A stretch of 64,000 nt of DNA from Microbacterium sp. MYb72 (lineage in GTDB: Bacteria; Actinomycetota; Actinomycetes; Actinomycetales; Microbacteriaceae), in contig NZ_PCOT01000009.1 of assembly GCF_002979415.1 (NCBI RefSeq), positions 1 to 64,000 on the forward strand, read 5' to 3'. Positions 1 through 42,157 of the stretch are shown here, in pieces. Every line of letters starts with the position of its first letter. The first letter of the stretch is position 1. The translations under genes and the position numbers were made by a program. The notes beneath the pieces were generated by a model. That model saw only the letters and a list, made by a program, of their open reading frames with translations. It searched no databases and had not been told where the DNA came from.

Positions 1-65
1 CACCCCTTCACGCTCTGTGGACAACTCCCTCACTCCCTACTCCTGTGGAGGACCAACGAAGCCCC

Positions 66-146
66 GTCGAGTGCATGTGAAGTCGACGAGTGCACGGCAT
101 CCTGACGTGAATCTCGTGTGCACTCGTCGAGTTCACGGGAAGTCGA
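66..146. repeat. short direct and inverted repeats upstream of the YqaJ-like gene
   Basis: A 21-bp segment starting GTCGAGTGCATG at 66-86 recurs at 126-146 with three mismatches. A perfect 13-bp inverted repeat, TCGACGAGTGCAC at 83-95 and its complement at 118-130, overlaps these copies with a 22-base spacer. No function is known to me. The arrangement could be a protein-binding region or the remnant of a small repeat element. The rest of 1-242 shows no gene that I can support. Confidence 0.6.
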
Positions 147-242
147 GGCCAGCGCGGCAGGACAGGCAGGGAACGAGAGAGGGATGCCGGGGTGCGGCGT
201 GTACGGGGACGGAGGGTCGGAAGTCGGGGTTAGGGTCGAAGG

Positions 243-923
243 GTGAATCCCGAACTCCAGGCACGCATCGTCGCGGACTCCCGCGACCGTGTCGCGTGGA
301 TGCGGGCCCGGTCGCGCGGGATCACCGCGACCGACGTCGCCGGACTGACCAGCGAGAGGTCGATCGCGCGCGCTGCGGACTCCAAACTCGGCGGAGGACC
401 CCGCTTCGGCGGCAACGCCTACACCGATCACGGACGTCGGCGCGAGCCCGAGATCGCCGCCTGGGTCGCGGCGACCCACGGCATCCTCCCCTCGTCCGCG
501 CTGTTCCGCGCCGAGGTCGAGCATCGCCACCTCGCGACCCCCGACGGCATCGCTGTGGACGGCGACGGGCGCATCCGCCTCGCCGAGATCAAGACCACGA
601 ACAAGCCGTTCCGCGGCATCCCGCGCACCTACCTGCGACAGATCTGGTGGCAGCAGCACGTGCTGGGCGCCGAGCGCACCCTGTTCGTGTGGGAGGAGCA
701 CGTCGACTTCTCGCCCGTGCACGACGAGCCGAAGTCCGTGTGGATCGACCGCGACGACCGCGAGATCGCGAAGCTCGTCGGACTCGCCACCGCCCTCATC
801 GACGAGCTGTACCGGCGCACCACCGGACAGCAGGTGCCGAGCAGGGAGATGGATGCCGCGGCCAGCCGTCGCGAGCAGCTCCGCGAGCGCGACGCGTTCC
901 GCGCGCTGGCCCTCGCCGACTGA
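243..923 (+). CDS. YqaJ-like viral recombinase/exonuclease family protein
   Basis: Probable PD-(D/E)XK-superfamily nuclease of the YqaJ/lambda-exonuclease type, 226 residues, GTG start. Family-like blocks appear in order: RSRGITATDVAGL near residue 23, GRRREPEIAAW near residue 63, the active-site-like segment ATPDGIAVDGDGRIRLAEIK around residues 99-119 (Asp, then Glu-X-Lys), and YLRQIWWQQHVLG just after. Such proteins usually work in phage recombination, but no other phage gene is near, so this looks like a solitary chromosomal copy. Actual nuclease activity and any partner are unknown. The repeats just upstream may be its control region. Confidence 0.72.
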   Translation: MNPELQARIVADSRDRVAWMRARSRGITATDVAGLTSERSIARAADSKLGGGPRFGGNAYTDHGRRREPEIAAWVAATHGILPSSALFRAEVEHRHLATPDGIAVDGDGRIRLAEIKTTNKPFRGIPRTYLRQIWWQQHVLGAERTLFVWEEHVDFSPVHDEPKSVWIDRDDREIAKLVGLATALIDELYRRTTGQQVPSREMDAAASRREQLRERDAFRALALAD

Positions 924-951
924 GCGGTCTCCGGCACTGATCCGCGCCGCC

Positions 952-1030
952 GGCGGCGTCACGCACAAGAGCATCCCCGACGCCGACCTGGCCCCAACGG
1001 CGGCGTCACGCACGAGAGCATCCCCCGACG
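952..1030. repeat. 31/32-bp imperfect direct repeat
   Basis: Two copies of a segment beginning GGCGGCGTCACGCAC lie at 952-982 and 999-1030. They differ by one substitution and one added C, and 16 bases separate them. They occupy the gap between the 3' ends of the convergent YqaJ-like gene and the minus-strand export operon. No stem-loop terminator is obvious here. The role is unknown. Confidence 0.6.
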
Positions 1031-1101
1031 AGGCCATGTGCGGACGTCGACGGGCAGCCTCTCCCCCGCCGCGCCGTCGCGACCGGACGATCGCTCGTCG
1101 C

Positions 1102-1590
1102 TCAGGTGCAGGTGTTGTTGCCGCCGAGCCCGAGGAGTCCGCCGACCGACAGCGTCCTGGTGGCCGCCCCGGGCGAGACCCATTGCGTGCCGGCGAACGT
1201 GTCGACCTTCACGGGGTTCGTGGCGCCGAGGAGGGACCCCAGGAGGGTGTTCAGCAGGCCGGAGGAGATGACAGAGGTGTAGGTGTACGGTCCGGTCCCG
1301 CTCTGCGTGATGTTCGCCTGGTCCACGACCACCGTCTTGATCATGAGGCGCTGGAAGACCTTGTCGTTCGGCGAGGTCCAGACGATCGTGACTCCGGTGA
1401 ACGTCCCCAGGAAGCTCGTGACCGTGCAGCTCGTGATGACGGGAGTCGCCAGGGTGATGCCGGTGAACGTCGCCGTCGCGTACTCCGAGTCTGTGAAGTA
1501 CGCCTCGGTCTGCTGCACCGGCGGCGCGATCGCCAGACCGATGAGCAGCGCGAGACCCGCGAGACCCGCGGTGAGCCGCCGGCCGTTCAC
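1102..1590 (-). CDS. alternate (SipW-type) signal peptide exported protein
   Basis: 162-residue predicted exported protein. A short Arg-containing N terminus and a hydrophobic core (about residues 7-24) lead into AYFTDSEYATATFTG at residues 30-44. This is the TasA/camelysin-like block that marks substrates of SipW-type signal peptidases. The mature part is Ser/Thr/Gly-rich with two cysteines, one of them near the C terminus. It is the last gene of the minus-strand operon, and its ATG overlaps the stop of the LAXTG protein by 4 bp, so translation is probably coupled. By analogy with TasA it may be a secreted fibre or surface component, but that function is inferred only. Confidence 0.75.
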   Translation of the reverse strand: MNGRRLTAGLAGLALLIGLAIAPPVQQTEAYFTDSEYATATFTGITLATPVITSCTVTSFLGTFTGVTIVWTSPNDKVFQRLMIKTVVVDQANITQSGTGPYTYTSVISSGLLNTLLGSLLGATNPVKVDTFAGTQWVSPGAATRTLSVGGLLGLGGNNTCT

Positions 1591-2219
1591 GAGTCCTCAT
1601 CCTCTCCGCGCGACCTCCGCCGACGCGCGACGAGGAGCACGGCGCCGACCACGACGAGCACGGCCCCTCCGCCGAGGATCCAGAGCACGACGGGCGACAT
1701 ACCCGTGGTGGCCAGCCCGCCGTCCGGTCCGATGACGGCCGACTCGCCGGCCCCGTGCGCATGGACACGGACCTCGGTGCGCCCGCCCTCGTCGTCCGCG
1801 GCGAGCGCGATGGAGAGCCTGAGGTGCCCGACCTCCGTGTCGGCCATCTGTGCGAGCGCGATCTCCGCTCCGTCGCGCGGGATGCTCCATCCGGTGCGCA
1901 GGATCGTCGAGCCACCGGGGCATCCGCTCGGGGTCCACGCGCTCATGCAGAGCGAGGCGTCGACCACCAGCGAGGCATCTCCGCTCGCGCTCACCCCGAT
2001 CGTGACGGTGCCGGGGTCGGGGGCATCCGCGCTGACGGCGACGTCCCACTGCACGGGCGCTCCGGGCAGCAGGGATGCCGCGGCGTCCCAGTCGGCGACG
2101 GACACCAGCCGCAGCACCTGCCCCTGCACGACCTGCGTCGACGGGGCCGCCCACGCCGGGCTCGCGCTGATCGAGCCGAGCACGACCAGCGCGGCGACGG
2201 CGACGACACGGCTCCTCAT
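1587..2219 (-). CDS. LAXTG-anchored cell-surface protein of the SipW locus
   Basis: 210-residue predicted surface protein. It has an ordinary N-terminal signal peptide (hydrophobic residues 5-24 ending AWAAP) and a beta-rich middle with a Cys pair. The C-terminal sorting signal is LATTG at residues 169-173, then a roughly 24-residue membrane segment, then RRRR and an acidic tail. LAXTG is the motif associated with class E sortases in actinobacteria. No sortase gene is in the window. The ATG at 2219 overlaps the signal peptidase stop by 4 bp. A paralogue with the same layout sits in the mirrored plus-strand operon (5661-6425). Its role is unknown; it could anchor or assemble the alternate-signal proteins. 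Confidence 0.72.
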   Translation of the reverse strand: MRSRVVAVAALVVLGSISASPAWAAPSTQVVQGQVLRLVSVADWDAAASLLPGAPVQWDVAVSADAPDPGTVTIGVSASGDASLVVDASLCMSAWTPSGCPGGSTILRTGWSIPRDGAEIALAQMADTEVGHLRLSIALAADDEGGRTEVRVHAHGAGESAVIGPDGGLATTGMSPVVLWILGGGAVLVVVGAVLLVARRRRSRGEDEDS

Positions 2220-2806
2220 GTCGGCATCCGCTCTCGCCGCCGTCCGTCGCGCGGCCAGAACGCCCATACGACGAGCACGGCCGCAGCCACGGTGATGCCG
2301 CCGAGCACGAAGGGGTTGCCCATCGCGACGATGACCGTGGCGATGCCCGGAACCGAGAACAGCACGGTCCGCACGGAGCTCACGGTGTACGGGAAGGGGT
2401 CTTCCGTGGCGTTCGCGTCGCCCTTCAGCGTGATCACGCGCTCGGCATCCGTCGCCCCAGGGACGATCGTCGTCACGCGGTGCGTGACCGGGAGCTCGCC
2501 CTCGCGGTCCACGGTCACGACGTCGCCCACCTCGACCTCGGCCGCGGGGATCCGCTGCACGACGGCGACGGATCCTGCCGGAATGGTCGGCGACATCGAT
2601 CCGGTCTTGAACATGATCAGTGTGATCCCGGCGGTGTAGGCGAGGATCACCAGCACGATGCAGACGACGCCGCCGATCGCGGCGATCCAGAGCAGCAGGT
2701 CGGCGAGCACCTTTGCAGGTCCGCGGCGGGGAGAGGATGCCGCAGCGGGCGCACCGGCGGGCGGCTCCTGCTCCCGCAGGCTCCGCCTCGTCACCGCCGT
2801 GCTCAT
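2216..2806 (-). CDS. sipW: signal peptidase I, ER/archaeal SipW type
   Basis: 196-residue membrane serine protease expected to cleave the alternate signal peptides of its neighbours. A membrane segment at about residues 33-58 precedes the catalytic-serine box TGSMSPT (Ser70). The VTHRV box gives His109 where bacterial enzymes of the LepB type have lysine, so this is a Ser-His dyad enzyme. LKGDAN at 127-132 is the conserved Asp box, and a second membrane segment ends the protein. I chose the ATG at 2806 because GAGAGGACGA lies just upstream. An in-frame ATG 36 bases earlier has weaker support. It lies between two alternate-signal genes and the LAXTG gene. Confidence 0.85.
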   Translation of the reverse strand: MSTAVTRRSLREQEPPAGAPAAASSPRRGPAKVLADLLLWIAAIGGVVCIVLVILAYTAGITLIMFKTGSMSPTIPAGSVAVVQRIPAAEVEVGDVVTVDREGELPVTHRVTTIVPGATDAERVITLKGDANATEDPFPYTVSSVRTVLFSVPGIATVIVAMGNPFVLGGITVAAAVLVVWAFWPRDGRRRERMPT

Positions 2807-2845
2807 CGTCTCGTCCTCTCGCCGCTCTCCCGTCGAAGGCATCCG

Positions 2846-3463
2846 CTATGTCGACGTCCCCAGCAGTATCCAGGTCTGGATGGCCGTGAGGCCCTGCGCC
2901 GTGTTCGGGGCGTCGGACTTCAGCGTCACCGCGAAGCAGTAGTTGATCTGGTTGCCGCCCGCCGCGAGCAGCGCCTGCGCCGACGCGGCGCCGGCCGTCA
3001 GCGCCGTGCCGTCGGCCACCACCACCGTGCCGCCCGCGTAGGCGCCGGAGTCGCACGTGGTGCCGGCGATGGTCTTGACCCCGTACGTCATGGAGGGCGC
3101 GAGACCCGTGCCTCCCGTGGTGCCGGCCGTGACCTGCACATTGCCCTTGACGGAGCTCGCTGACGTCTTGACGCTGAACAGCGCGTACACCGTGTTGCCC
3201 GGCGCCATCCCGCTGAACGGGGCGGTGAAGGACAGCGCGGCCTGCGAGCCGACGGGGTGGTTCGTGAACGTCCCCGTGCCCGTCGTCGAGCCGACGATGT
3301 CGAAGCTGCCCGACGTGAAGGTCGCCGCCCCGTACTCGGAGTCGTTCCATGCGGCCAGCGTCGCGGCTCCGCCCACGCCGAGCACGAGTCCACCCGCGAG
3401 GATGGCTCGGATTCGGCGGGAACGCAGCCGCTTCGCGTCCCGCATGTCCCTGCGGGTCACCAT
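2846..3463 (-). CDS. alternate (SipW-type) signal peptide exported protein
   Basis: 205-residue predicted secreted protein. A strongly basic N terminus (residues 4-19, many Arg/Lys) and hydrophobic core lead to LAAWNDSEY at 36-44, the block typical of SipW-dependent substrates, followed by GAATFTSGSF. The mature region is Thr/Ser/Gly/Ala-rich with two cysteines. It is clearly similar to the preceding operon gene at 3471-4088, with the same length and plan, so the pair looks like a tandem duplication. A second in-frame Met at residue 7 is a possible start. Probably a TasA-like surface protein; polymer formation is untested. Confidence 0.78.
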   Translation of the reverse strand: MVTRRDMRDAKRLRSRRIRAILAGGLVLGVGGAATLAAWNDSEYGAATFTSGSFDIVGSTTGTGTFTNHPVGSQAALSFTAPFSGMAPGNTVYALFSVKTSASSVKGNVQVTAGTTGGTGLAPSMTYGVKTIAGTTCDSGAYAGGTVVVADGTALTAGAASAQALLAAGGNQINYCFAVTLKSDAPNTAQGLTAIQTWILLGTST

Positions 3464-3470
3464 CAGACGC

Positions 3471-4088
3471 TCAGTTCGAGGTCGCCGTGAACTTCCAGGT
3501 GGCCGTCGTCGCGAGAGTCTGCTCCAGGTTCGCGTCGGCGGTGACCTTGAAGCACAGCTGCACCGCGGTGCCGGCCGTCGACACGTTCGGGCCCTGAGAG
3601 AGAGTGATCGGGGTCACGCCGGTCTGCACGTCGAGCGTCGCACCCGTCGCGACAGGAGTGCCCGTCGCGGAGGCCGCGTTGCAGGTCGCGCCCGGCGCCA
3701 GCTGGTACACCGAGTACGAGAGGTGGTCGCTGTTCGACGTCGCCGCGGCGTCTGCCGTGGTGCCGTTGGCCGAGAGGCTCGCGCCCGTCGTGGTGCCGGC
3801 GGCGAGGCGCACCCAGAAGCCCGAGTACACGATGTTTCCCGGAGCGAGGTTGCTCACGGGAACGGTGAACGCCAGTGTCGCGGCGGTGTCGCCCTTGTCG
3901 ACGTTGTGGTCGCTGTAGTTCGCGTCGCCGGTCGCCGATCCCTCAAGGTTGAACGCGCCGGCCGTGAAAGTGCCGTTCGCGAACTCGGAGTCGTTCCATG
4001 CCGCGAGCGTGACCGCGGTGCCGATGCCGAGCACGAGACCTCCTGCGAGCACCGCCAGGACCTTGCGCTGAGTTGCCGTTGTTGCCAT
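3471..4088 (-). CDS. alternate (SipW-type) signal peptide exported protein
   Basis: 205-residue predicted secreted protein, first gene of the minus-strand export operon. Residues 8-30 form the basic-hydrophobic leader, and LAAWNDSEF at 28-36 is the SipW-substrate block. Two cysteines lie in the C-terminal half, and the end is a beta-rich TWKF stretch. A good ribosome site, GAGGGG about eight bases upstream, supports the ATG at 4088. The preceding CCTGAGGGGGA is repeated almost exactly before the first gene of the divergent operon. It resembles the gene at 2846-3463 in length and layout. Confidence 0.8.
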   Translation of the reverse strand: MATTATQRKVLAVLAGGLVLGIGTAVTLAAWNDSEFANGTFTAGAFNLEGSATGDANYSDHNVDKGDTAATLAFTVPVSNLAPGNIVYSGFWVRLAAGTTTGASLSANGTTADAAATSNSDHLSYSVYQLAPGATCNAASATGTPVATGATLDVQTGVTPITLSQGPNVSTAGTAVQLCFKVTADANLEQTLATTATWKFTATSN

Positions 4089-4191
4089 GTCAGATTCCCC
4101 CTCAGGAATGCCGGGTGTACGACGGCGGAGTGCATCGTGGACGGCCGCCCCTCAGTGACCGGCATCCGCTCGTCCCCCACATCATCACCCA

Positions 4192-4264
4192 GTGGGAGCC
4201 CTCCCACAAGGGATGCAGGTCACGATTGCACACCGGAATATCTGTTTCTCACCAATATTCCGGT
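4192..4264. promoter_or_regulatory. two palindromes in the divergent SipW promoter region
   Basis: The 272-bp gap between the two divergent export operons holds two clear palindromes. GTGGGAG-CC-CTCCCAC lies at 4192-4207. A 10-bp perfect inverted repeat, ACCGGAATAT, lies at 4232-4241 with its complement at 4255-4264 and a 13-base spacer. The second is AT-rich against a very GC-rich background, as expected for an operator or promoter core. Both operons must start their transcripts in this gap, so either site could co-regulate them. No regulator gene is adjacent. Confidence 0.5.
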
Positions 4265-4360
4265 TTCGATGGACGACGGCGGTGACGGTGCACTAGAACT
4301 TAGGGGAAACGGAGGCCCCCACCCACGGTCTCCGCCCACATGAGTCCTGAGGGGGACGGT

Positions 4361-5080
4361 ATGGAACCGAGACGAGCGCGCCGCGCTGCCACGAACAACA
4401 GAACGCGGAAGGTCGTCGCGATCGTCGCCGCGGCCGCCGTCGCAGGGGTGGGAGCGTCCCTGAGCCTCGCGGCCTGGAACGACACCGAATGGCTCTTCGC
4501 CGGCGCCGGGACGGAGCCCGGCATCAGCACCTCCTCGTTCGAGCTCGAACAGCTCGCCCTTCCGGCATCCGGAGCAGCCCCCGGTTCGACCGCGTGGGCG
4601 GACTACGAGACGAACCCGGGCAACGGCGTGACCTTCACGCTGTCGGATCTCACGCCCGGCGACTCGACCTATGCCCTCATCGCCGTGCGCTCCTCGGCGG
4701 ACTCGCTGGGCGGCACTGCCACCCTTGCAGCCGCCACCGCCGCGGCCGGCGTGACCGTGGCGGATGCCGGCGGCCACCTGTGGAACGCCACCGACGTGCG
4801 CGTCTCCACCTGGAGCGGCGCCGACCTCGCCGCCACGAAGGCGTGCAACGCGGCGACCTTCGGCAACGTGGCGAACACCACGATCGCGACCGGCGATCTG
4901 GGTGCGAGCGGCGGCACGGCAGCGCAGACGTACGCGGCGGACTCCGGCAACGTCAACTTCTACTGCTTCGAACTGACCTTCACGGTTCCCGGAGTGCTGC
5001 CGTCCGGCATCACCACGGTCGACGACTACATGGGCCGCAGCATCGCGCCCGCGTGGAAGTTCGACGCCGCGTCCGCCTGA
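4361..5080 (+). CDS. alternate (SipW-type) signal peptide exported protein
   Basis: 239-residue predicted secreted protein, first gene of the plus-strand export operon. A basic N terminus (RRARRAATNNRTRK) and a hydrophobic core precede LAAWNDTEW at 36-44, the SipW-substrate block. Three cysteines and a Trp-Lys-Phe motif near the C terminus recall the minus-strand paralogue. I chose the ATG at 4361 rather than 4340 because GAGGGGGA sits correctly before it, matching the leader of the divergent gene. The signal peptidase gene follows 11 bases after the stop, which suggests a cognate substrate-peptidase pair. Confidence 0.78.
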   Translation: MEPRRARRAATNNRTRKVVAIVAAAAVAGVGASLSLAAWNDTEWLFAGAGTEPGISTSSFELEQLALPASGAAPGSTAWADYETNPGNGVTFTLSDLTPGDSTYALIAVRSSADSLGGTATLAAATAAAGVTVADAGGHLWNATDVRVSTWSGADLAATKACNAATFGNVANTTIATGDLGASGGTAAQTYAADSGNVNFYCFELTFTVPGVLPSGITTVDDYMGRSIAPAWKFDAASA

Positions 5081-5091
5081 CCCCTCGGACT

Positions 5092-5664
5092 ATGACCTCC
5101 ACCGCAGAGGACCTGCGAGACCGCGAGGTCGATCAGGGACTGCGCCGACGCGATCGTTCCAGACGGCCGCGTCGGCGCCGCTCCCTCCTCCCCGCGATCC
5201 AGAACGTGCTCGTGTGGCTGCTGGGCGCCGTCGGGGCGATCGCCATCGCCTGGCTCGTCACCTCGTGGGCGCTCGGCCTCCATCTGGTGATCCTCGCCAC
5301 CGGCTCGATGTCTCCGACCATGCCCGCGGGCACCGCGGTGATCGAGAGGACCGCGGATGCCGCAGACCTCGGCGTCGGCGACGTCGTCAGCGTGCCTCGC
5401 GCCCATGACGACCAGCTGGTGACCCACCGGATCGTGGCGATCGGAGACGAGGAGGCGGACCGCAGGACGCTCACGCTGCGCGGGGACGCCAACGACGCCG
5501 ATGACGCCGAGCAGTACGTCGTCACGCGTGCGGGGGTCGTGCTGTTCGCGATCCCCGGACTCGGGTTCGTGCTCTCGGCCGTGACCTCGCCGATCGGCCT
5601 CGCGGTGCTGGGCCTGGTGCTCGCCGGCGCCGTCCTCTGGGTGCTGTGGCCGAGCAGACGATGA
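5092..5664 (+). CDS. sipW: second signal peptidase I, ER/archaeal SipW type
   Basis: 190-residue membrane serine protease and paralogue of the enzyme at 2216-2806. A very basic cytosolic head (residues 18-30, mostly Arg) and a membrane segment at about 38-58 precede the catalytic box TGSMSPT (Ser72). VTHRI supplies His112 of the Ser-His dyad, LRGDAN at 129-134 is the conserved Asp box, and a C-terminal membrane helix closes the protein. The stop overlaps the next ATG by 4 bp. Two peptidases in one locus suggest each serves its own operon's substrates, but overlapping specificity cannot be excluded. Confidence 0.85.
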   Translation: MTSTAEDLRDREVDQGLRRRDRSRRPRRRRSLLPAIQNVLVWLLGAVGAIAIAWLVTSWALGLHLVILATGSMSPTMPAGTAVIERTADAADLGVGDVVSVPRAHDDQLVTHRIVAIGDEEADRRTLTLRGDANDADDAEQYVVTRAGVVLFAIPGLGFVLSAVTSPIGLAVLGLVLAGAVLWVLWPSRR

Positions 5665-6425
5665 CGGTCATGACACGTCGAGACCGGTTCCGCCGCATCG
5701 TCGGCGGGACCCTGATCGTCGTGTGCGCGGGTGCGGGGGCGGTGCTCGCCGGAACGGCCGCAGCCCAGGCGGCGCCGTTCTTCACCGACCCCGGCCAGTC
5801 ACCCGGACATCTCACGCTGGAGACATCGCCGTGGATCGTCCGCGACGCGCAGAGCGCCCACGCGCTCTCCCCGGGTGAGTCCCTCGTGCTGTCTCCGGGC
5901 GATCGGGGGTACTGGGAGATCCGCGCCGCCCACGACGACCCGTCCGGGCCCGCGACTCTGTCGGTCGTGCTGACGGCCGAGGGAGAGCTCGCCCGCGACC
6001 CGCAGGGTCTGCGGGTCGTGTTCCAGCAGTGCCTCACGGAGTGGACCGGGATGCCGTCCGGCACTCCGACGTGCGCCGCTCCCGGCGGTGCGACGACGCT
6101 GCCCCCGGCGACGGCATCCGCCTCCTCCCCGCGCACCTACCTCGTAGATCTCGCCGCCGGATCGGCGCAGCACATGCTCGTCACGGCGACGCTCGACGGA
6201 ATCCCTGCCGACGAGGAGGGCAAGGGCCTCGACGCGACCGTGGGCGTCGGCCTCACCGCCGCCCGCACGGACGCGGCCGCTCCGCCCGCCGGCGGACCGC
6301 TCGCCGCCACCGGCATCGACGGGGTCGCCCTGCTGCAGATGCTCGGGGTCGCGCTGGCCGCCGTGGGCGCGGGCATCGGAGTCCGGATGCTGCGCCGCAC
6401 CGAGCCGACGGAGGATGCGACGTGA
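5661..6425 (+). CDS. LAXTG-anchored cell-surface protein of the SipW locus
   Basis: 254-residue predicted surface protein, the counterpart of the gene at 1587-2219. An N-terminal signal segment ends near AQAAPFF, followed by a beta-rich region with a Cys pair. The sorting signal is LAATG at 214-218, then a hydrophobic helix and RMLRR. The start at 5661 uses an ATGA overlap with the peptidase gene; an in-frame GTG lies 15 bases earlier. The stop again overlaps the next start (GTGA at 6422), so peptidase, anchor protein and large substrate are translationally coupled. Function is inferred from position only. Confidence 0.72.
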   Translation: MTVMTRRDRFRRIVGGTLIVVCAGAGAVLAGTAAAQAAPFFTDPGQSPGHLTLETSPWIVRDAQSAHALSPGESLVLSPGDRGYWEIRAAHDDPSGPATLSVVLTAEGELARDPQGLRVVFQQCLTEWTGMPSGTPTCAAPGGATTLPPATASASSPRTYLVDLAAGSAQHMLVTATLDGIPADEEGKGLDATVGVGLTAARTDAAAPPAGGPLAATGIDGVALLQMLGVALAAVGAGIGVRMLRRTEPTEDAT

Positions 6426-8197
6426 ACCGCCTGCGCGCGTGGCTCGCCGTCGGTGCCGTCGCGATCCTCGCCGTGCCCGTGGCGACCTCCACCTCTCTGG
6501 CGAGCTGGCGGGACGCCGAGTGGGCGCACGCCGCGCCCGTCGGAACGTCCTCGCTGAGGTGCGGGACCGACACCGGCTTCTCGGCCACATCCGCCGGCCG
6601 CCAGGTCAGCGGCACTCTGCTCGGCACCGATCTCGACACCGTCGCCGCCGTCAACGGCGTCCGCGACGCGATCGACGGCGCGCTCACCGAGACCTACTCC
6701 CCCGCGCAGAACGCGCACGACCTCGACCCCGGTTCGACGACGACGTTCACCAGGGCGACCTCGCTCAACGTCGGCATCCTCCCCGCTCCCCTGGCGACGG
6801 TGTCGCTGCCGACCATCCAGGCAGCCGTGCCCGACTTCGCCGTCGGCACCCTGTCGCAGTACTCGCAGGTGACGCCGAAGGGCCTCGCGACCGGAGCGAC
6901 AGGAGCGGTGACCAACCAGTCCGGCATCGCGACGATCGGCGAGTACGGATCATCCACCCCGCCGCGCACGGGCTCGCTGACGCTGAACGGCGTGCTCGGC
7001 AGCGCGATCACGTCGAACCTGACGAACGCCGCGCTCGACATCGGCGCGGTGTCGGCCCTGTCCCGCGTCGACGGCTGCGATGTGCTGCGCGAGGCGACGT
7101 GGGACGTACCGGCCGCAACGACCGCCGTCGCCCGCGACTACGACATCGCGGGGCTCGACCTCACGCTGACGGCTCCCGTGCTCTCCGGGCTCGTCGGGCA
7201 GGTCGACACCTCGGTCACCCAGCTCCAGGCCAAGCTGAACGGACTGCAGGCCTCCCTCTCGTCCGGCATCACCGGAGTGCTCAATCAGCTCCATCTCGAC
7301 CTCGGCGTCCTCAGCGTGTCGACCGCGGGCTCCGGGGTGTCGGTCACGAACATCCCGCAGGTCGCGCCGGCGGTCTCCGCCCTCCTCGCAGGCTTCTCGG
7401 ATGCCGACGGCATCGTCACCCTCAGCCCCCGCGACGGTCTGATCAGGGTGAACCTCGCACGGCTGCTGAACGGCGCGAACGGGCTGAACGACCTGGCTCC
7501 GAACACGCAGTTCCTGCTGACGCCCGCGGTGCTGACGAACATCGGAACGCGCGTGACGAACCTGGTGACGGCCTGGCGGACCCAGGTCATCAGCGCTCTC
7601 ACCACGGTCGCCGGCCTGCCGAGGGTCAAGATCGACGTGAGCGCGGAGGTCAAGGCCACCGTCGCCGGGATCCCTCCGCTCATCCCCGACGTGGTGATCA
7701 AGGTCGCCGATGTGAAGATCAACCTCGACGCGAACCTCGGCGCGCTGCACACCTCCGGCACGTCACTGCTGAACGCCGGCGTGAGCGTCACGATCGTCGA
7801 CCTCGGCATCCTCACCCCCGTGCTCGGGGCTCTGCTCACTCCCGTTCTCGCGCTGCTCAATCCCCTCGTCGGCACGCTCCGCAACGTCATCAAGGCCGTC
7901 GTCGACGACGTCTTCTCCGTGGTCACCGCCCTCGACGGCGTGCTCGCCGCCGGCGTGCCCGTCGTCGCGAATGCCGTCGCCGCGGTCTTCGGCGCGCTCG
8001 CTCCGATCTTCTCGCTGTACGTGAACGTGCAGCCCGATCGCCCGAACGCGCCCCCTGTCTCGCCCTTCATCCCTGCCACGAGCACAGCGACAGCGGAGTA
8101 CAAGGTCACGGCGCTGCGCATCGGGCTGCTCGACGCGCTGCTGCCCACGAGCGTGAATCTGGGCACCGCGTCGGCCGGGCCGATCTCGCTGCCCTAG
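6422..8197 (+). CDS. large alternate-signal surface protein (choice-of-anchor G-like)
   Basis: 591-residue predicted secreted protein, GTG start overlapping the previous stop. The leader carries the SipW-substrate block SLASWRDAEW at residues 25-34. The mature chain is rich in Val, Leu, Thr and Ala with two cysteines and long beta/alpha repeats. A Leu/Val-rich stretch near residues 460-495 could be a membrane-associated or coiled segment. It resembles proteins called choice-of-anchor G in related actinobacteria, a family often next to SipW genes; that name is from memory. A large stem-loop repeat follows and probably ends the operon. Confidence 0.68.
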   Translation: MNRLRAWLAVGAVAILAVPVATSTSLASWRDAEWAHAAPVGTSSLRCGTDTGFSATSAGRQVSGTLLGTDLDTVAAVNGVRDAIDGALTETYSPAQNAHDLDPGSTTTFTRATSLNVGILPAPLATVSLPTIQAAVPDFAVGTLSQYSQVTPKGLATGATGAVTNQSGIATIGEYGSSTPPRTGSLTLNGVLGSAITSNLTNAALDIGAVSALSRVDGCDVLREATWDVPAATTAVARDYDIAGLDLTLTAPVLSGLVGQVDTSVTQLQAKLNGLQASLSSGITGVLNQLHLDLGVLSVSTAGSGVSVTNIPQVAPAVSALLAGFSDADGIVTLSPRDGLIRVNLARLLNGANGLNDLAPNTQFLLTPAVLTNIGTRVTNLVTAWRTQVISALTTVAGLPRVKIDVSAEVKATVAGIPPLIPDVVIKVADVKINLDANLGALHTSGTSLLNAGVSVTIVDLGILTPVLGALLTPVLALLNPLVGTLRNVIKAVVDDVFSVVTALDGVLAAGVPVVANAVAAVFGALAPIFSLYVNVQPDRPNAPPVSPFIPATSTATAEYKVTALRIGLLDALLPTSVNLGTASAGPISLP

Positions 8198-8216
8198 GTC
8201 CCGCGCCTCCGACGTG

Positions 8217-8298
8217 TCGTCTCGCCGCGCTCGCTCAACGACCGGCGGGGCGCGGGCCCTGCCCCGGTCGTTGAGCGAGGAGCGCAGCGACGAGACGA
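8217..8298. repeat. long imperfect palindrome (REP-like / terminator)
   Basis: The left arm at 8217-8245 (TCGTCTCGCCGCGCTCGCTC at its start) pairs with the right arm at 8264-8298 (ending GCGACGAGACGA), with a GC-rich loop of about 18 bases. The arm text reads as the GCTCAACGACC type that I associate with dispersed intergenic repeats in related genomes. It sits directly after the export operon and before the MFS promoter. It can serve as a transcription stop and is probably one of many genomic copies. Confidence 0.6.
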
Positions 8299-8318
8299 AA
8301 CGACGCCTCTCGCGTATG

Positions 8319-8367
8319 TAGTTGACCTATCTCAACCATTCGGCGTATAGTTGACGAAGTTCAACTA
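8319..8367 (+). promoter_or_regulatory. MFS promoter with two MarR-type operators
   Basis: A near-consensus promoter reads TTGACC (8322-8327), an 18-base spacer, then TATAGT (8346-8351). Two palindromes cover it. TAGTTGA-N6-TCAACCA at 8319-8338 is imperfect and overlaps the -35 box. TAGTTGA-N6-TCAACTA at 8348-8367 is perfect and overlaps the -10 box. Their centres are 29 bp apart. The co-transcribed MarR-family gene at 10121 is the obvious ligand-responsive repressor, so the unit probably controls itself. Confidence 0.75.
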
Positions 8368-8424
8368 TCTCGTGCGCGCCAGAGCTGTCGCAGCATCCCC
8401 CTCCGACTGCGAAAGGCCTTCTGC

Positions 8425-10134
8425 ATGACCACGGATTCTCCCGCCGGAATGACGCACCGCCAGGTGCTCGAAGCCCTCACCGGGCTCCTTCTCGGCATGT
8501 TCGTCTCGATGATCGCCGGCACGGTGGTCTCCACCTCGATGCCCGTCATCGTCCACGATCTCGGCGGCGACCAGGCCGCCTACACCTGGGTGATCACCTC
8601 CACGCTGCTCACCACGGCGATCTCGACCCCGATCTGGGGCAAGCTCGCCGACCTCTTCAACCGCAAGCTGCTGATCCAGATCGCGATCGTGATCTTCGTG
8701 CTCGCGACCGCCGCCGCGGGTTTCGCGCAGGACACCGGCATGCTCATCGCCTTCCGCGCCGTGCAGGGACTCGGCGCCGGCGGCCTCGCCGCCCTCAGCC
8801 AGGTCATCATGGCCGACATCATCAGCCCGCGCGAACGCGGCCGCTACATGGGCCTGTTCGGCGCGGTCATGGCCGTCGCCACCGTCGGCGGACCGCTGCT
8901 CGGCGGCTGGATCACCGACAGCATCAACTGGCGCTGGAACTTCTTCGTCGCACTGCCCTTCGCCGTCGCGGCCCTGATCATCCTGCAGAAGACCCTCCAC
9001 ATCAAGGCCGAGCGCACCCGCAAGGTCTCGGTCGACTACGTCGGCATCGTGCTGCTCTCCGCCGCCGTCTCGCTCCTGCTGATCTGGATCACCAACGCCG
9101 GCACGAACTTCGACTGGTGGGGCATCGAGACGATCCTCATGATCGGCGGGGTCCTCCTCGCGACGATCCTGTTCATCATCGTCGAGCTCAAGGTGCGCGA
9201 GCCGCTCATCCCGCTGACGCTGTTCCGCGGACGCACCTTCACCCTCTCCGTGCTCGCCTCGATCTCCATCGGCGTCGCGATGTTCGGCACCTCCGTCTAC
9301 CTCGCGCAGTACATGCAGCTCTCGCGCGGAGCCTCGCCCACCGAGGCCGGTCTCATGACGCTGCCGATGATGGCGGGACTCCTCATCTCGTCGATGGTCG
9401 TCGGTCAGCTCGTGACCCGCTACGGAAAGTGGAAGGGCTACCTGATCCTCGGCTCCGTGCTGCTGATCGCCGGCTCCTCCCTGCTCTCGACGCTGCACTA
9501 CGACACGAACTTCGCGCTCGTCTCCGTCTACATGTTCCTCACCGGCGCCGGCGTCGGCATGACGATGCAGAACCTCGTGCTCATCGTGCAGAACGTCGCC
9601 AAGCCCACGGAGATCGGCGTCGCCTCCTCCGGCGTCACCTTCTTCCGCAGCCTCGGCGGCACCATCGGCGTCTCGGTCATGGGCGCCTTCCTCGCGAACA
9701 AGATCACCGATCTGTTCACGAACGGCAAGGAAGACCTGATGGCCGCGATCGCCCAGACCGGCGACAAGGCGCAGGAGGTCGCCACCGCGCTCAGCAGCGG
9801 CACGGTTCCCGAAGTGCGTCTGCTCCCCGAGCCCGTGCGCTCCCTGGTCGAGGACTTCTACGCCCAGGCGATCTCGCACGCATTCCTCATCGGCATCCCT
9901 CTGGCCGTGCTGAGCCTGATCGCGATCCTGTTCCTCCCGAACAGGCCGCTGACCCGCATGACGACCAGCGAGCGCGCCAAGGCGGAGGCCGGCTCCGACG
10001 ACGAGCACCGTGTCGTGGAGGAGGCCGCCGACGTCGCGATCGCCGACGCCGAGGCTCTCGCGGGCGCTCCGACCGGTACAGTGCAGGTTGTGTCCCACCG
10101 CACCGGCGAAGCAGCATCCGATGGCAGAGTCTGA
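8425..10134 (+). CDS. MFS multidrug exporter, DHA2 (EmrB/QacA) family
   Basis: 569-residue inner-membrane proton-drug antiporter. Fourteen hydrophobic segments can be followed, and the length fits the 14-TM DHA2 family. Family features include LAD(L)FNRK in the loop after TM2, GLGAGGLAALSQV near residue 111, and the TM5 antiporter motif GPLLGGWITD near residue 155. The C-terminal tail of about 60 residues is charged and cytosolic. GAAAGG seven bases upstream supports the ATG. Its 3' end overlaps the MarR gene by 14 bp. It probably exports toxic compounds sensed by that regulator; the substrate is unknown. Confidence 0.9.
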   Translation: MTTDSPAGMTHRQVLEALTGLLLGMFVSMIAGTVVSTSMPVIVHDLGGDQAAYTWVITSTLLTTAISTPIWGKLADLFNRKLLIQIAIVIFVLATAAAGFAQDTGMLIAFRAVQGLGAGGLAALSQVIMADIISPRERGRYMGLFGAVMAVATVGGPLLGGWITDSINWRWNFFVALPFAVAALIILQKTLHIKAERTRKVSVDYVGIVLLSAAVSLLLIWITNAGTNFDWWGIETILMIGGVLLATILFIIVELKVREPLIPLTLFRGRTFTLSVLASISIGVAMFGTSVYLAQYMQLSRGASPTEAGLMTLPMMAGLLISSMVVGQLVTRYGKWKGYLILGSVLLIAGSSLLSTLHYDTNFALVSVYMFLTGAGVGMTMQNLVLIVQNVAKPTEIGVASSGVTFFRSLGGTIGVSVMGAFLANKITDLFTNGKEDLMAAIAQTGDKAQEVATALSSGTVPEVRLLPEPVRSLVEDFYAQAISHAFLIGIPLAVLSLIAILFLPNRPLTRMTTSERAKAEAGSDDEHRVVEEAADVAIADAEALAGAPTGTVQVVSHRTGEAASDGRV

Positions 10135-10585
10135 GTCCTCTGAGGCGCGGGCCGTCGCGGTCCGCGCCCTCGAGGCGGAGTTCAGCGAGCTCATCACGAA
10201 CTTCCGTCGGGTGCTCCTGGAGAACGCGAACCGGGTCAGTCCGGGCATGCTCCCCGGCGCGTACAAGACGCTGACCACGATCGCCCGGTGCGAGCAGGTC
10301 ACGGTGTCGACGCTCGCGGAGCGGATGCTGTCGGACAAGGGCCAGGTGAGCCGCACGGTGCGCGAGCTGGAGGGCCTCGGACTCGTCGAGCGCTCCGCCG
10401 ACCCGAGCGACGGCCGCTCCTTCCTGCTGCGGCTCACCCCGCACGGGGAGGAACGTCTCGCCCAGGCCCGGCTGCCGCAGGAGGGCCTGCTCATGACGAC
10501 GCTCACCGACTGGAGCGTCACGGACATCGACAACCTCACGCACCTGCTGCACGCTCTGGTCTCGGGCGCGACGCCGAACCGCTAG
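10121..10585 (+). CDS. MarR-family transcriptional regulator of the MFS exporter
   Basis: 154-residue winged-helix DNA-binding protein. The helix-turn-helix spans roughly residues 52-80 (STLAERMLSDKGQVSRTVRE), followed by the wing DPSDGRSFLLRLT, where the Asp-X-Arg pair typical of MarR wings is visible. The terminal helices would form the dimer. The ATG at 10121 lies inside the exporter's 3' end, so the pair is one operon. It probably binds the two TAGTTGA palindromes at 8319-8367 and represses both genes until a drug-like ligand binds. Its last four bases overlap the convergent lysG-like gene. Confidence 0.85.
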   Translation: MAESESSEARAVAVRALEAEFSELITNFRRVLLENANRVSPGMLPGAYKTLTTIARCEQVTVSTLAERMLSDKGQVSRTVRELEGLGLVERSADPSDGRSFLLRLTPHGEERLAQARLPQEGLLMTTLTDWSVTDIDNLTHLLHALVSGATPNR

Positions 10586-40705: not shown

Positions 40706-42157
40706 TCAGCGCGGAGCGTGCGCCTCCAGGAACTCGTACACGTCGGTCGTGTCGACGCCGGGGAACGCACCCGTGGGCAGCGTCGCGAGCAGGGTGCGGG
40801 GGGTCTTGACGTTCGGCCAGGCGTTCTCGCGCCAGCGCTCCTCGAGCTCGGCGGGAGCGCGACGGCAGCACACCTCGACCGAGTGCTTCGAGACGCCGCG
40901 GTGCGGGGTGTCCCGCCCGACGAACCACTTGGTGTCGTCGAAGCGCACGCCGACGCTCACGGAGTGCAGCCCCTCGCTCGACGCCTCGACGCGGGCGGTG
41001 CACCAGTACGTCCCGTTGCCGGTGTCGGTGTACTGGTAGTACGGGTTGAACCGGTCGTCCTCGTCGAACACCACGCGGCTGGTCCACTTCCGGCAGCACA
41101 TCTGCCCCTCGATCGCGCCGAACCGGTCGGTCGGGAAGTTCACGTCGTCGTTCTCGTAGGCCTTGGTGATGGTGCCCGACTCGTGCACCTTGAGGAAGTG
41201 CACGGGGATGTCGAGGTGGCGCGTCGCGAGGTTCGTGAAGCGGTGCGCCGCCGTCTCGTACGACACCGAGTAGGCGTCGCGCAGGTCCTCGATCGAGATC
41301 GCCTTGCGCGACTTCGCCTCCGTCAGCATCGGGACGACGTGCCCCTCTGGCATGAGCAGGGCGCCGGTGAGGTAGTTCGTCTCCACGCGCTGGCGGAGGA
41401 ACTCCGCGTAGCTGCGCGGCTCTGCGTGCCCCAGCATCCGGCTCGACAGCGCCTGCAGCACGGCCGTGCGGGCATCGCCCTTCGCCTGCGCGCGGCTCGA
41501 GAGGTACAGCCTGCCGTTGGCGAGGTCGGCGACGCTGCGCGTGGTCTGCGGGAGGTCGGGGGCGTAGTGCAGGGTGAAGCCGAGGTAGGCGGCGATCTCG
41601 GATGCCGTGCGCTGAGTGAGCGGACCGCCGGAGTGGCCGACGGCGGTGAGGATCTCGGACGCTTTGGCCTCGAGGTCGGCGAAGTGGTTGTCCTGCCGTC
41701 GCATGAGGTGGCGCAGCTCGACGTTCGCACGCCTGGCCTCCTCGGGCGTCGCCGCCCTCTCGTCCTTGAGGCGGTCGATCTCGCCATGCAGAGCCAGCAG
41801 CGCTTTGAGGGCATCCGTCGGCATGCTCTTGGCGATGCGGAAGGGCTCGATGCCCAGCGCCTGGAAAGTCTGCCCCTTCATCGCGCGCTCCAGCGCGATC
41901 TCGATCGCACTGCGCTCGTCGAGCGGCTCCCCCTCCAGCAGCGCGTCGATCGTGACGCCCAGTGCGCGCGCGATCGCCTGCAGCTGCGTGAGCTTGGGTT
42001 CGCGCTTGCCCGTCTCGATCATCGACATCTGGCTCGGCGCGCGATCGACCGCCGCGGCGAGGTCGTCGAGGGTCATCCCGCGCGCGGTACGGAGCTGGCG
42101 GATGCGGCGGCCGATCGTGAGGGCGTCGGCGTCTTCTTCGACGGCTGAGGTGGTCAT
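40706..42157 (-). CDS. ramB: RamB/short-chain fatty acyl family transcriptional regulator
   Basis: 483-residue regulator. A Cro/C1-type helix-turn-helix at about residues 16-70 (RRIRQLRTARGMTLDDLAAA) is followed by an IrrE-like middle region and a C-terminal DUF2083-type domain with Cys pairs in GQMCCRKW and SVEVCCRRAP. In Corynebacterium RamB controls the glyoxylate genes aceA and aceB during growth on acetate. Here the gene is divergent from aceB-aceA across 140 bp, with a palindrome in between, which strongly supports the same role. I take the ATG at 42157, the first residue before the domain. Confidence 0.87.
   Translation of the reverse strand: MTTSAVEEDADALTIGRRIRQLRTARGMTLDDLAAAVDRAPSQMSMIETGKREPKLTQLQAIARALGVTIDALLEGEPLDERSAIEIALERAMKGQTFQALGIEPFRIAKSMPTDALKALLALHGEIDRLKDERAATPEEARRANVELRHLMRRQDNHFADLEAKASEILTAVGHSGGPLTQRTASEIAAYLGFTLHYAPDLPQTTRSVADLANGRLYLSSRAQAKGDARTAVLQALSSRMLGHAEPRSYAEFLRQRVETNYLTGALLMPEGHVVPMLTEAKSRKAISIEDLRDAYSVSYETAAHRFTNLATRHLDIPVHFLKVHESGTITKAYENDDVNFPTDRFGAIEGQMCCRKWTSRVVFDEDDRFNPYYQYTDTGNGTYWCTARVEASSEGLHSVSVGVRFDDTKWFVGRDTPHRGVSKHSVEVCCRRAPAELEERWRENAWPNVKTPRTLLATLPTGAFPGVDTTDVYEFLEAHAPR

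Follow-up and report, generated by a model that had tools for sequence, protein, structure and literature searches.

The first 64,000 nucleotides of contig NZ_PCOT01000009.1 of Microbacterium sp. MYb72 (here, the window) carry at positions 1102–8197 nine genes that form two divergent operons, termed M (minus strand, in the order M1-M2-M3-M4-M5) and P (plus strand, P1-P2-P3-P4). The original prediction had described the two as sharing one plan, and the coordinates and family assignments of the nine genes bear this out: one or more alternate-signal subunits are followed by a SipW/SEC11-type signal peptidase, an LAXTG anchor and then a second alternate-signal protein. We consider it probable that the pair represents two ancient paralogous fibre-export systems lying head to head, the fibres themselves being predicted. 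For the following genes we computed order, family and homology, the catalytic motifs and sorting signals, the TasA-like folds, and their distribution and phylogeny.

M1, 3471–4088, minus strand: candidate fibre subunit with a SipW-type signal peptide (TIGR04088, 36.1 bits), predicted mature start AWNDSEF and a predicted TasA-like beta-sandwich.
M2, 2846–3463, minus strand: second subunit, a homologue of M1 (hhalign 100%); predicted mature start AWNDSEY; TIGR04088, 27.9 bits.
M3, 2216–2842, minus strand: endoplasmic reticulum (ER)/SipW-type signal peptidase with Ser82, His121 and Asp142; TIGR02228, 61.1 bits.
M4, 1587–2219, minus strand: surface protein with an ordinary signal peptide (by eye), LATTG (residues 169–173), a transmembrane stretch and a basic tail.
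M5, 1102–1590, minus strand: small alternate-signal protein with a GTG start; predicted mature start near YFTDSEY.
P1, 4361–5080, plus strand: candidate fibre subunit; predicted mature start AWNDTEW; predicted TasA-like fold.
P2, 5092–5664, plus strand: ER/SipW-type signal peptidase with Ser72, His112 and Asp132; TIGR02228, 56.5 bits.
P3, 5661–6425, plus strand: surface protein, a homologue of M4, with LAATG (residues 214–218), a transmembrane stretch and a basic tail.
P4, 6422–8197, plus strand: protein of the choice-of-anchor G family (NF033766, 156.2 bits) with a GTG start and an alternate signal (by eye); predicted mature start SWRDAEW.

The cut-offs were 19 bits for the SipW-type signal model TIGR04088, 51.85 bits for TIGR02228 and 45 bits for NF033766. 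TIGR04088 does not call P1, P4 or M5 of the window; the alternate signals of these three were judged by eye, that of P1 additionally by profile comparison, and 19 of the 23 members of the P1 alignment are called by the model at E values up to 1. No C-terminal anchor was seen in the protein sequence of P4. Coupled 4-bp overlaps, previously ascribed to each operon, are present at four junctions (ATGA or GTGA at M3/M4, M4/M5, P2/P3 and P3/P4) and absent from the other three, which are gaps of 7 bp (M1/M2), 3 bp (M2/M3) and 11 bp (P1/P2).

Profile comparison indicates that M1, M2 and P1 are homologous (hhalign, M1 to P1 99.9%, E 1.4e-34; M1 to M2 100%, E 3.7e-49). Structure models were made for M1 and P1 from separate alignments. 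The M1 model (predicted local distance difference test score (pLDDT) 85.4, predicted template modelling score (pTM) 0.75) is a beta-sandwich, for which Foldseek placed the TasA fibre 8aur first and as the sole match under E 0.001 (E 6.4e-4); in VIA-align 2 the top row was 7ueg, a bundling pilus of Pyrobaculum (Z 8.4), with which several donor-strand pilins (Csu and Fim among them) tied to within 1 unit of Z, and 8aur reached Z 7.3. The P1 model (pLDDT 74.5) had 8aur as its top match with both programs, at E 1.3e-3 in Foldseek and at Z 7.5 in VIA-align 2, where the enzyme domain 8k2h tied with it; monomeric TasA (5of1) ranked fifth and 7ueg sixth. The scores are modest, yet the two separately aligned models agree in pointing weakly to a TasA-like fold. 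TasA, a client of SipW, polymerises by means of an N-terminal donor strand formed by residues 28–38, in which F29, I32 and F39 make contacts (PMC9674648; this and the other papers cited are quoted from excerpts). The segment corresponding to this strand is among the most conserved parts of the M1- and P1-type subunits: across 42 M1-type rows W31 and F41 never vary, nor do W39, D41, E43 and W44 across 23 P1-type rows.

Both M3 and P2 match TIGR02228, a model of archaeal/ER-type signal peptidases, above its cut-off, and the genome holds no other match. Searched against PDB, the peptidase profile found SEC11C (E 4.4e-9), in which the Ser, His and Asp motifs align, and also SEC11A. The strings GSM, [TVI]HR and GDxN were all found in 82 of 84 peptidases collected from related loci, with L176 and L178 missing the second string as the pattern was written (L numbers denote fetched loci, G numbers genomes and C numbers contigs). 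Judged by these motifs, both window peptidases look active, M3 and P2 each keeping Ser, His and Asp in place.

The anchors M4 and P3 are likewise related to each other (hhalign 98.9%, E 3.2e-17), and neither matched a chaplin model or any curated family over its cut-off. The absence of a sortase gene from the window, noted at the outset, holds: PF04203 has three matches in the genome, all on contigs C28 and C66, with the window on C67. Two of these sortases are class C and one is class E (220.6 bits against a cut-off of 160), and class E sortases have been reported to use LAXTG (PMC5148588). The missing sortase is thus no gap in the system, since a class E enzyme, the reported user of LAXTG, is encoded elsewhere in the genome; with an LAXTG motif, a transmembrane stretch, a basic tail and a class E sortase in the same genome, window M4 and P3 have the features of predicted class E substrates. 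Sortase-polymerised pili would be another use of these parts, for which one may cite the two class C sortases, the LAXTG proteins of both operons and the LPXTG motif in some relatives' M4 and P3. We regard such pili as very unlikely, given that the M1, M2 and P1 sequences have no sorting signal and that the class C genes lie on contigs other than that of the window.

For the working of the fibre systems we infer cleavage sites, donor-strand exchange, wall attachment, the roles of M5 and P4 and the separateness of the two fibres. M1, M2 and M5 would be exported through Sec with their alternate leaders, and M3, as an ER-type Ser/His/Asp peptidase, would cut ahead of AWNDSEF or a like sequence, freeing an N-terminal segment that may serve as the donor strand for the incomplete beta-sandwich of the next subunit; M1, with M2, would thereby polymerise without a sortase. 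M4 would be processed by the ordinary signal peptidase, after which the class E sortase would attach it at LATTG to the wall, as anchor or base. The P operon would operate alike, with P1 as subunit, P2 as peptidase and P3 as LAATG anchor; P4, the large choice-of-anchor G protein, may be a tip or adhesive part, and M5, its presumed small counterpart, a starter or tip.

A number of observations weigh against fibres of this kind. The matches to 8aur are weak (template modelling score about 0.4, root mean square deviation 9–10 Å), a VIA Z of 7–8 is at the level typical of models with no clear relative, and the presumed donor segment is poorly modelled (pLDDT under 55). The Bacillus equivalogs stay below their cut-offs, with a best score of 13.2 bits (M2) against 450 for TasA (NF046066) and scores of 40.8 and 51.5 bits against 190 for SipW (NF046067). 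Pfam gave no subunit match over its cut-off, and TapA models are absent from the family matches of the nine proteins. The sorting motif is inconstant among relatives, in whose M4 (n = 24) it is LAXTG in 16, LPXTG in 5 and neither in 3, and in whose P3 (n = 15) a C-terminal LAXTG occurs in 3, LPXTG in 9 and neither in 3; nor did tblastn find M4 in the M-type loci of Gordonia, Rhodococcus, Williamsia, Kitasatospora and Brachybacterium. A search of PDB sequences with the M1 profile gave 0 matches up to E 10, and at E values up to 0.1 none of M1, M2 and P1 matched Pfam Peptidase_M73 (camelysin). Camelysin was named as an enzyme, and one could suppose that the window proteins are wall- or membrane-associated and do not form fibres, being for instance coat-like or enzymatic. 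This is unlikely: the weakness of the structural matches, and the unrelated enzyme domains that reach like VIA scores for P1, leave room for it, but Foldseek ranks a fibre subunit highest for either model, and the SipW clients TasA and BsaA make filaments (PMC9674648, PMC7395162). Two surface fibres, as originally proposed, are the best reading of the predicted folds of M1 and P1, and two donor-strand fibres are what the weak TasA matches of these models most likely reflect.

The two operons had been thought to stem from an inverted duplication, which in its fullest form would have copied one operon in this lineage and left both to make one two-component fibre. Mirrored gene order, the homology of subunit, peptidase and anchor between the operons and the leader block common to M1 and P1 (see below) speak for such an origin. 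M3 and P2 are only 35% identical, and each has kin at 56–80% among the matches listed. We built a peptidase tree from 84 distinct peptidases of at least 140 aa, drawn from 40 + 55 fetched loci; it was rooted at the midpoint, its bootstrap was not settled and long-branch rows were kept. Window P2 falls in a clade of support 99/91 whose 25 rows come from Microbacterium, Cellulomonas and Cryobacterium; its nearest neighbour there is M. hydrocarbonoxydans SA35, followed by G143, G180 and G120. Window M3 groups with SA35, G186 and G187 (100/99) outside the P clade, among rows that include Gordonia, Rhodococcus, Williamsia and Nakamurella. The deepest split of the tree is weak (61/93), and M-type peptidases are unsupported as a single clade because nine M-type rows, namely L160, L178 and a group of seven with Agromyces, lie on its P side. 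Forcing M3 and P2 of the window and SA35 into one clade cost 126.7 log units and was rejected by the approximately unbiased (AU) test (p-AU 0.0004), and with it a local inverted duplication. Furthermore, each type stands with no copy of the other beside it in 39 of the 40 loci, and the profile comparison of the terminal proteins M5 and P4 aligned only 20 residues of the signal region, which indicates that the two are not homologous beyond it. As a recent event, duplication is refuted for the peptidases by these comparisons, and we hold the duplication reading as a whole to be highly improbable. Phylogeny, which had been named as the check on kinship, thus gives a divided answer: the copies are not nearest kin, which counts against duplication, yet profile comparison makes them ancient paralogues rather than unrelated genes. 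The operons, judged by their sequences, are ancient paralogues and not recent copies of each other. In the same tree the peptidases of L179 (a record named Kitasatospora arboriphila) and L180 (Williamsia muralis) are almost identical, and one of the two records may be misnamed or contaminated.

The 40 fetched loci (13.5–20 kb each) are the best peptidase matches listed rather than a random sample, and counts among them are not genus frequencies. M-type genes occur in 26, P-type genes in 15 and both in one, L099, which is the same stretch as L139 and belongs to M. hydrocarbonoxydans SA35; like the window, it carries both operons. In two further genomes the types occur unlinked (G206, at L120 and L136; G253, at L119 and L138). 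Another kind of double arrangement is seen in a further genome of the genus, G104, where two SipW-type matches lie on the same strand with about 2.5 kb between them (C1:38783–39142 and 41592–41855, among the matches listed). The window operons are flanked by a YqaJ-like gene, an MFS–MarR pair, LysR and LysE. YqaJ lies in the stretch of 24 of the 26 M-type loci and of 4 of the 15 P-type loci (L099 and L112–L114), and L112–L114 carry P with no M in the same neighbourhood. The MFS–MarR pair (window 8425–10585, between the operons and LysR) is present at this locus in some genomes and missing from others, for instance L099 and L104, which marks the neighbourhood as prone to insertion and deletion.

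Identities of the operon genes to the window resemble those of the flanks. They are 57–60% for P2, 57–59% for MFS and 59–60% for LysR (the last in L112 and L114) at L112–L114, and 62% for M3 and 59% for MFS at L127 and L130; YqaJ is more conserved (69–77%), and L126 fits descent less well, with M3 at 57% and MFS at 66%. These like values fit an ancestral locus that held both operons and was followed by losses, with transfer through the flanks being possible. Arrival of the P (or the M) operon by homologous recombination through the conserved flanks, in place of descent and losses, is a possibility that we rate as appreciable and still below even. It would suit the patchiness of P at this locus, where only the window, L099 and L112–L114 have it among the fetched loci, as well as the lack of P at the locus in G186 and G187, even though the M3 of SA35 is nearer to theirs than to that of the window, and the exchange of M1 between species described next; the resemblance of P2 and M3 identities to those of MFS and LysR is what descent would give.

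M1 and M3 trees were compared for 35 rows with M1, M3 and YqaJ, the clade having been named from the M3 tree with the M1 identities already known. The window, L099, L104 and L128 form one clade by M3 (100/99), which the M1 data reject (p-AU 2.7e-5): M1 of the window shares 80% identity with that of L105 and L107 but 53% with that of L099, although YqaJ is 90% and 96% identical. Most likely, the M1 gene has passed from species to species on its own, apart from its peptidase, in the manner of a surface antigen. At the M loci L184 and L185, the YqaJ and LysR flanks are 83–90% identical to the window, yet the subunits have strongly diverged, M1 being 48% and M2 40% identical.

The space between the operons and the leaders of their first genes comprise the following features.

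Divergent intergenic region, 4089–4360, no strand: 272 bp between M1 and P1.
Leader block of M1, 4096–4107, minus strand: TCCTGAGGGGGA with the Shine–Dalgarno sequence of M1, from window and genome pattern counts.
Leader block of P1, 4345–4356, plus strand: TCCTGAGGGGGA with the Shine–Dalgarno sequence of P1, from window and genome pattern counts.

A common leader block ahead of the first gene of each operon had been reported, and pattern counts confirm it: CCTGAGGGGGA is found twice in the window against 0.05 expected, and none of 100 shuffles had two. The 12-mer TCCTGAGGGGGA has three copies in the 3.94-Mb genome, the third being antisense at the leader of another open reading frame. The block holds the Shine–Dalgarno sequence, as judged from CCTGAGGGGG, which ends 8 nt ahead of the M1 start and 5 nt ahead of the P1 start; it is an extended ribosome-binding site, and its conserved part exceeds the ribosome-binding site itself. 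Because of this, translation of P1 most likely starts at 4361 rather than at the upstream ATG at 4340. When the leaders are compared across loci, 28 of 51 distinct M1 rows have CCTGAGGGGG no more than 30 nt from the start, at a distance of 6–10 nt ahead of it, as have 2 of 23 P1 rows, those of the window and of L099, at 5 nt; among these rows, the M1-type leader stands on P1 only where P1 adjoins M1. As a genus-wide marker the 12-mer was rejected: 110 of 295 genomes have it, some of the listed matches lie far from the M locus, and a reversed control pattern occurs too, so that the 12-mer alone is unreliable. From 18 M1 leaders RNAalifold predicted no more than a 5-bp hairpin spanning the block (-4.4 kcal/mol, covariation term -0.08), and we therefore claim no riboswitch. 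The intergenic region also contains, at 4232–4264, a perfect 10-bp inverted repeat (arms 4232–4241 and 4255–4264), and related CGG[AG]ATA[CT]CGG sites lie 149–157 nt ahead of M1 in L100, L101, L104 and L128 (4 of 51 rows); the CGGNATA repeat was dismissed as an operator, being too patchy among relatives.

The predicted mature N-termini of the alternate-signal proteins differ between the operons at residue +7, which is F, Y and Y in window M1, M2 and M5 versus W and W in P1 and P4. We counted this residue by regular expression in rows named by their best BLAST label, the P4 rows counting a gene of L149 two times and including a fragment of 94 aa (L172). It is W in 23 of 23 P1 rows and in 24 of 27 P4 rows (2 Y, 1 not parsed), and F or Y in 46 of 51 M1 rows (2 W, 1 S, 2 not parsed), 31 of 54 M2 rows (4 W, 17 other, 2 not parsed) and 22 of 36 M5 rows (0 W, 14 other). 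A strict rule is contradicted by the Cellulomonas loci L168 and L169, which have P-clade peptidases and pair subunits with W (counted in the M2/M1 rows) with Y in P4; W occurs likewise in the M-type subunits of L164, L177, L179 and L182. As P4 and M5 have no homology beyond this region, their match to the operon type suggests a common reader of the +7 region, which may be the peptidase or a subunit groove. The operon-specific termini also suggest separate substrate sets for the two peptidases, in keeping with what had been proposed. The signature is in large part one inherited difference between clades, loose in M2 and short of proving specificity. The furthest-reaching interpretation, which we put forward as tentative and rather doubtful, holds that the window encodes two insulated donor-strand fibre systems in which residue +7 (W versus F/Y) is read by the cognate peptidase and groove, the leader block co-expresses the pair in the two species with both operons, and M1 is swapped while the peptidase stays. 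Each set of peptidase, subunit and tip would then be a closed circuit; the two Cellulomonas loci just named, and the few M-type subunits outside the P clade that have W, tell against it.

Behind P4, at 8216–8299, lies a long palindromic element that resembles a repetitive extragenic palindromic (REP)-type element or a terminator. Rfam gave no match at gathering score on positions 1–9000, and its listings below that score (two mir-8515 at the palindrome, on both strands, and one sR45) were taken as chance.

Most work on TasA-type fibres, which bind the biofilms of Bacillus together, concerns Bacillaceae. The tapA-sipW-tasA operon of B. subtilis likewise joins a subunit, a dedicated SipW peptidase and an accessory protein, with a TasA-like fold (PMC9674648, PMC10151520); the window operons differ in having an LAXTG protein and no TapA-model match, and in staying under the TasA and SipW equivalog cut-offs. 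In sipW-calY1-bc_1280-calY2 of B. cereus, one peptidase accompanies two related subunits, as M3 does M1 and M2, but the gene order as quoted names no LAXTG protein (PMC10151520), and the window subunits have no Pfam match over the cut-off. The sipW-bsaABCRSD operon of C. perfringens offers a SipW-dependent, sortase-independent polymer, such as is predicted from the genes of the window: BsaA polymers need SipW and not the adjoining sortase (PMC7395162). That operon holds a two-component regulator, and the excerpts describe no operon pair (PMC7395162); the operons of the window hold an LAXTG protein. Streptomyces chaplins, which are class E substrates, share the LAXTG sorting signal in an actinobacterium (PMC5148588) and differ in that M4 and P3 matched no chaplin model. 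The bundling pilus of Pyrobaculum calidifontis (7ueg), the first VIA-align 2 row for M1, is archaeal and is not known to be anchored by a class E sortase.

TasA homologues have been reported from various bacteria and archaea (PMC10151520). A literature search that covered the titles and the starts of abstracts of the papers listed, with subscription papers largely outside its reach, found no study of fibres of the SipW or TasA type in actinobacteria, Microbacterium included; in excerpts of a matrix proteomics study of Microbacterium oxydans, the sole mention of TasA concerns the Bacillus protein, and no M. oxydans fibre is named (PMC11985002). The comparisons made here indicate that Microbacterium and related actinobacteria repeatedly carry a version equipped with a SEC11-like peptidase and a wall-anchor protein of its own, and that this version comes in two old types, the P type occurring also in Cellulomonas and Cryobacterium, and M-type subunits and peptidases in further families. 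Both systems, with their predicted fibres, lie head to head in the window genome and in one named relative and are found singly elsewhere. A genome in which both types adjoin is a natural test of how SipW-type peptidases and donor-strand fibres tell their own partners apart, and the swapping of subunit genes suggests that selection acts on a fibre exposed at the cell surface.

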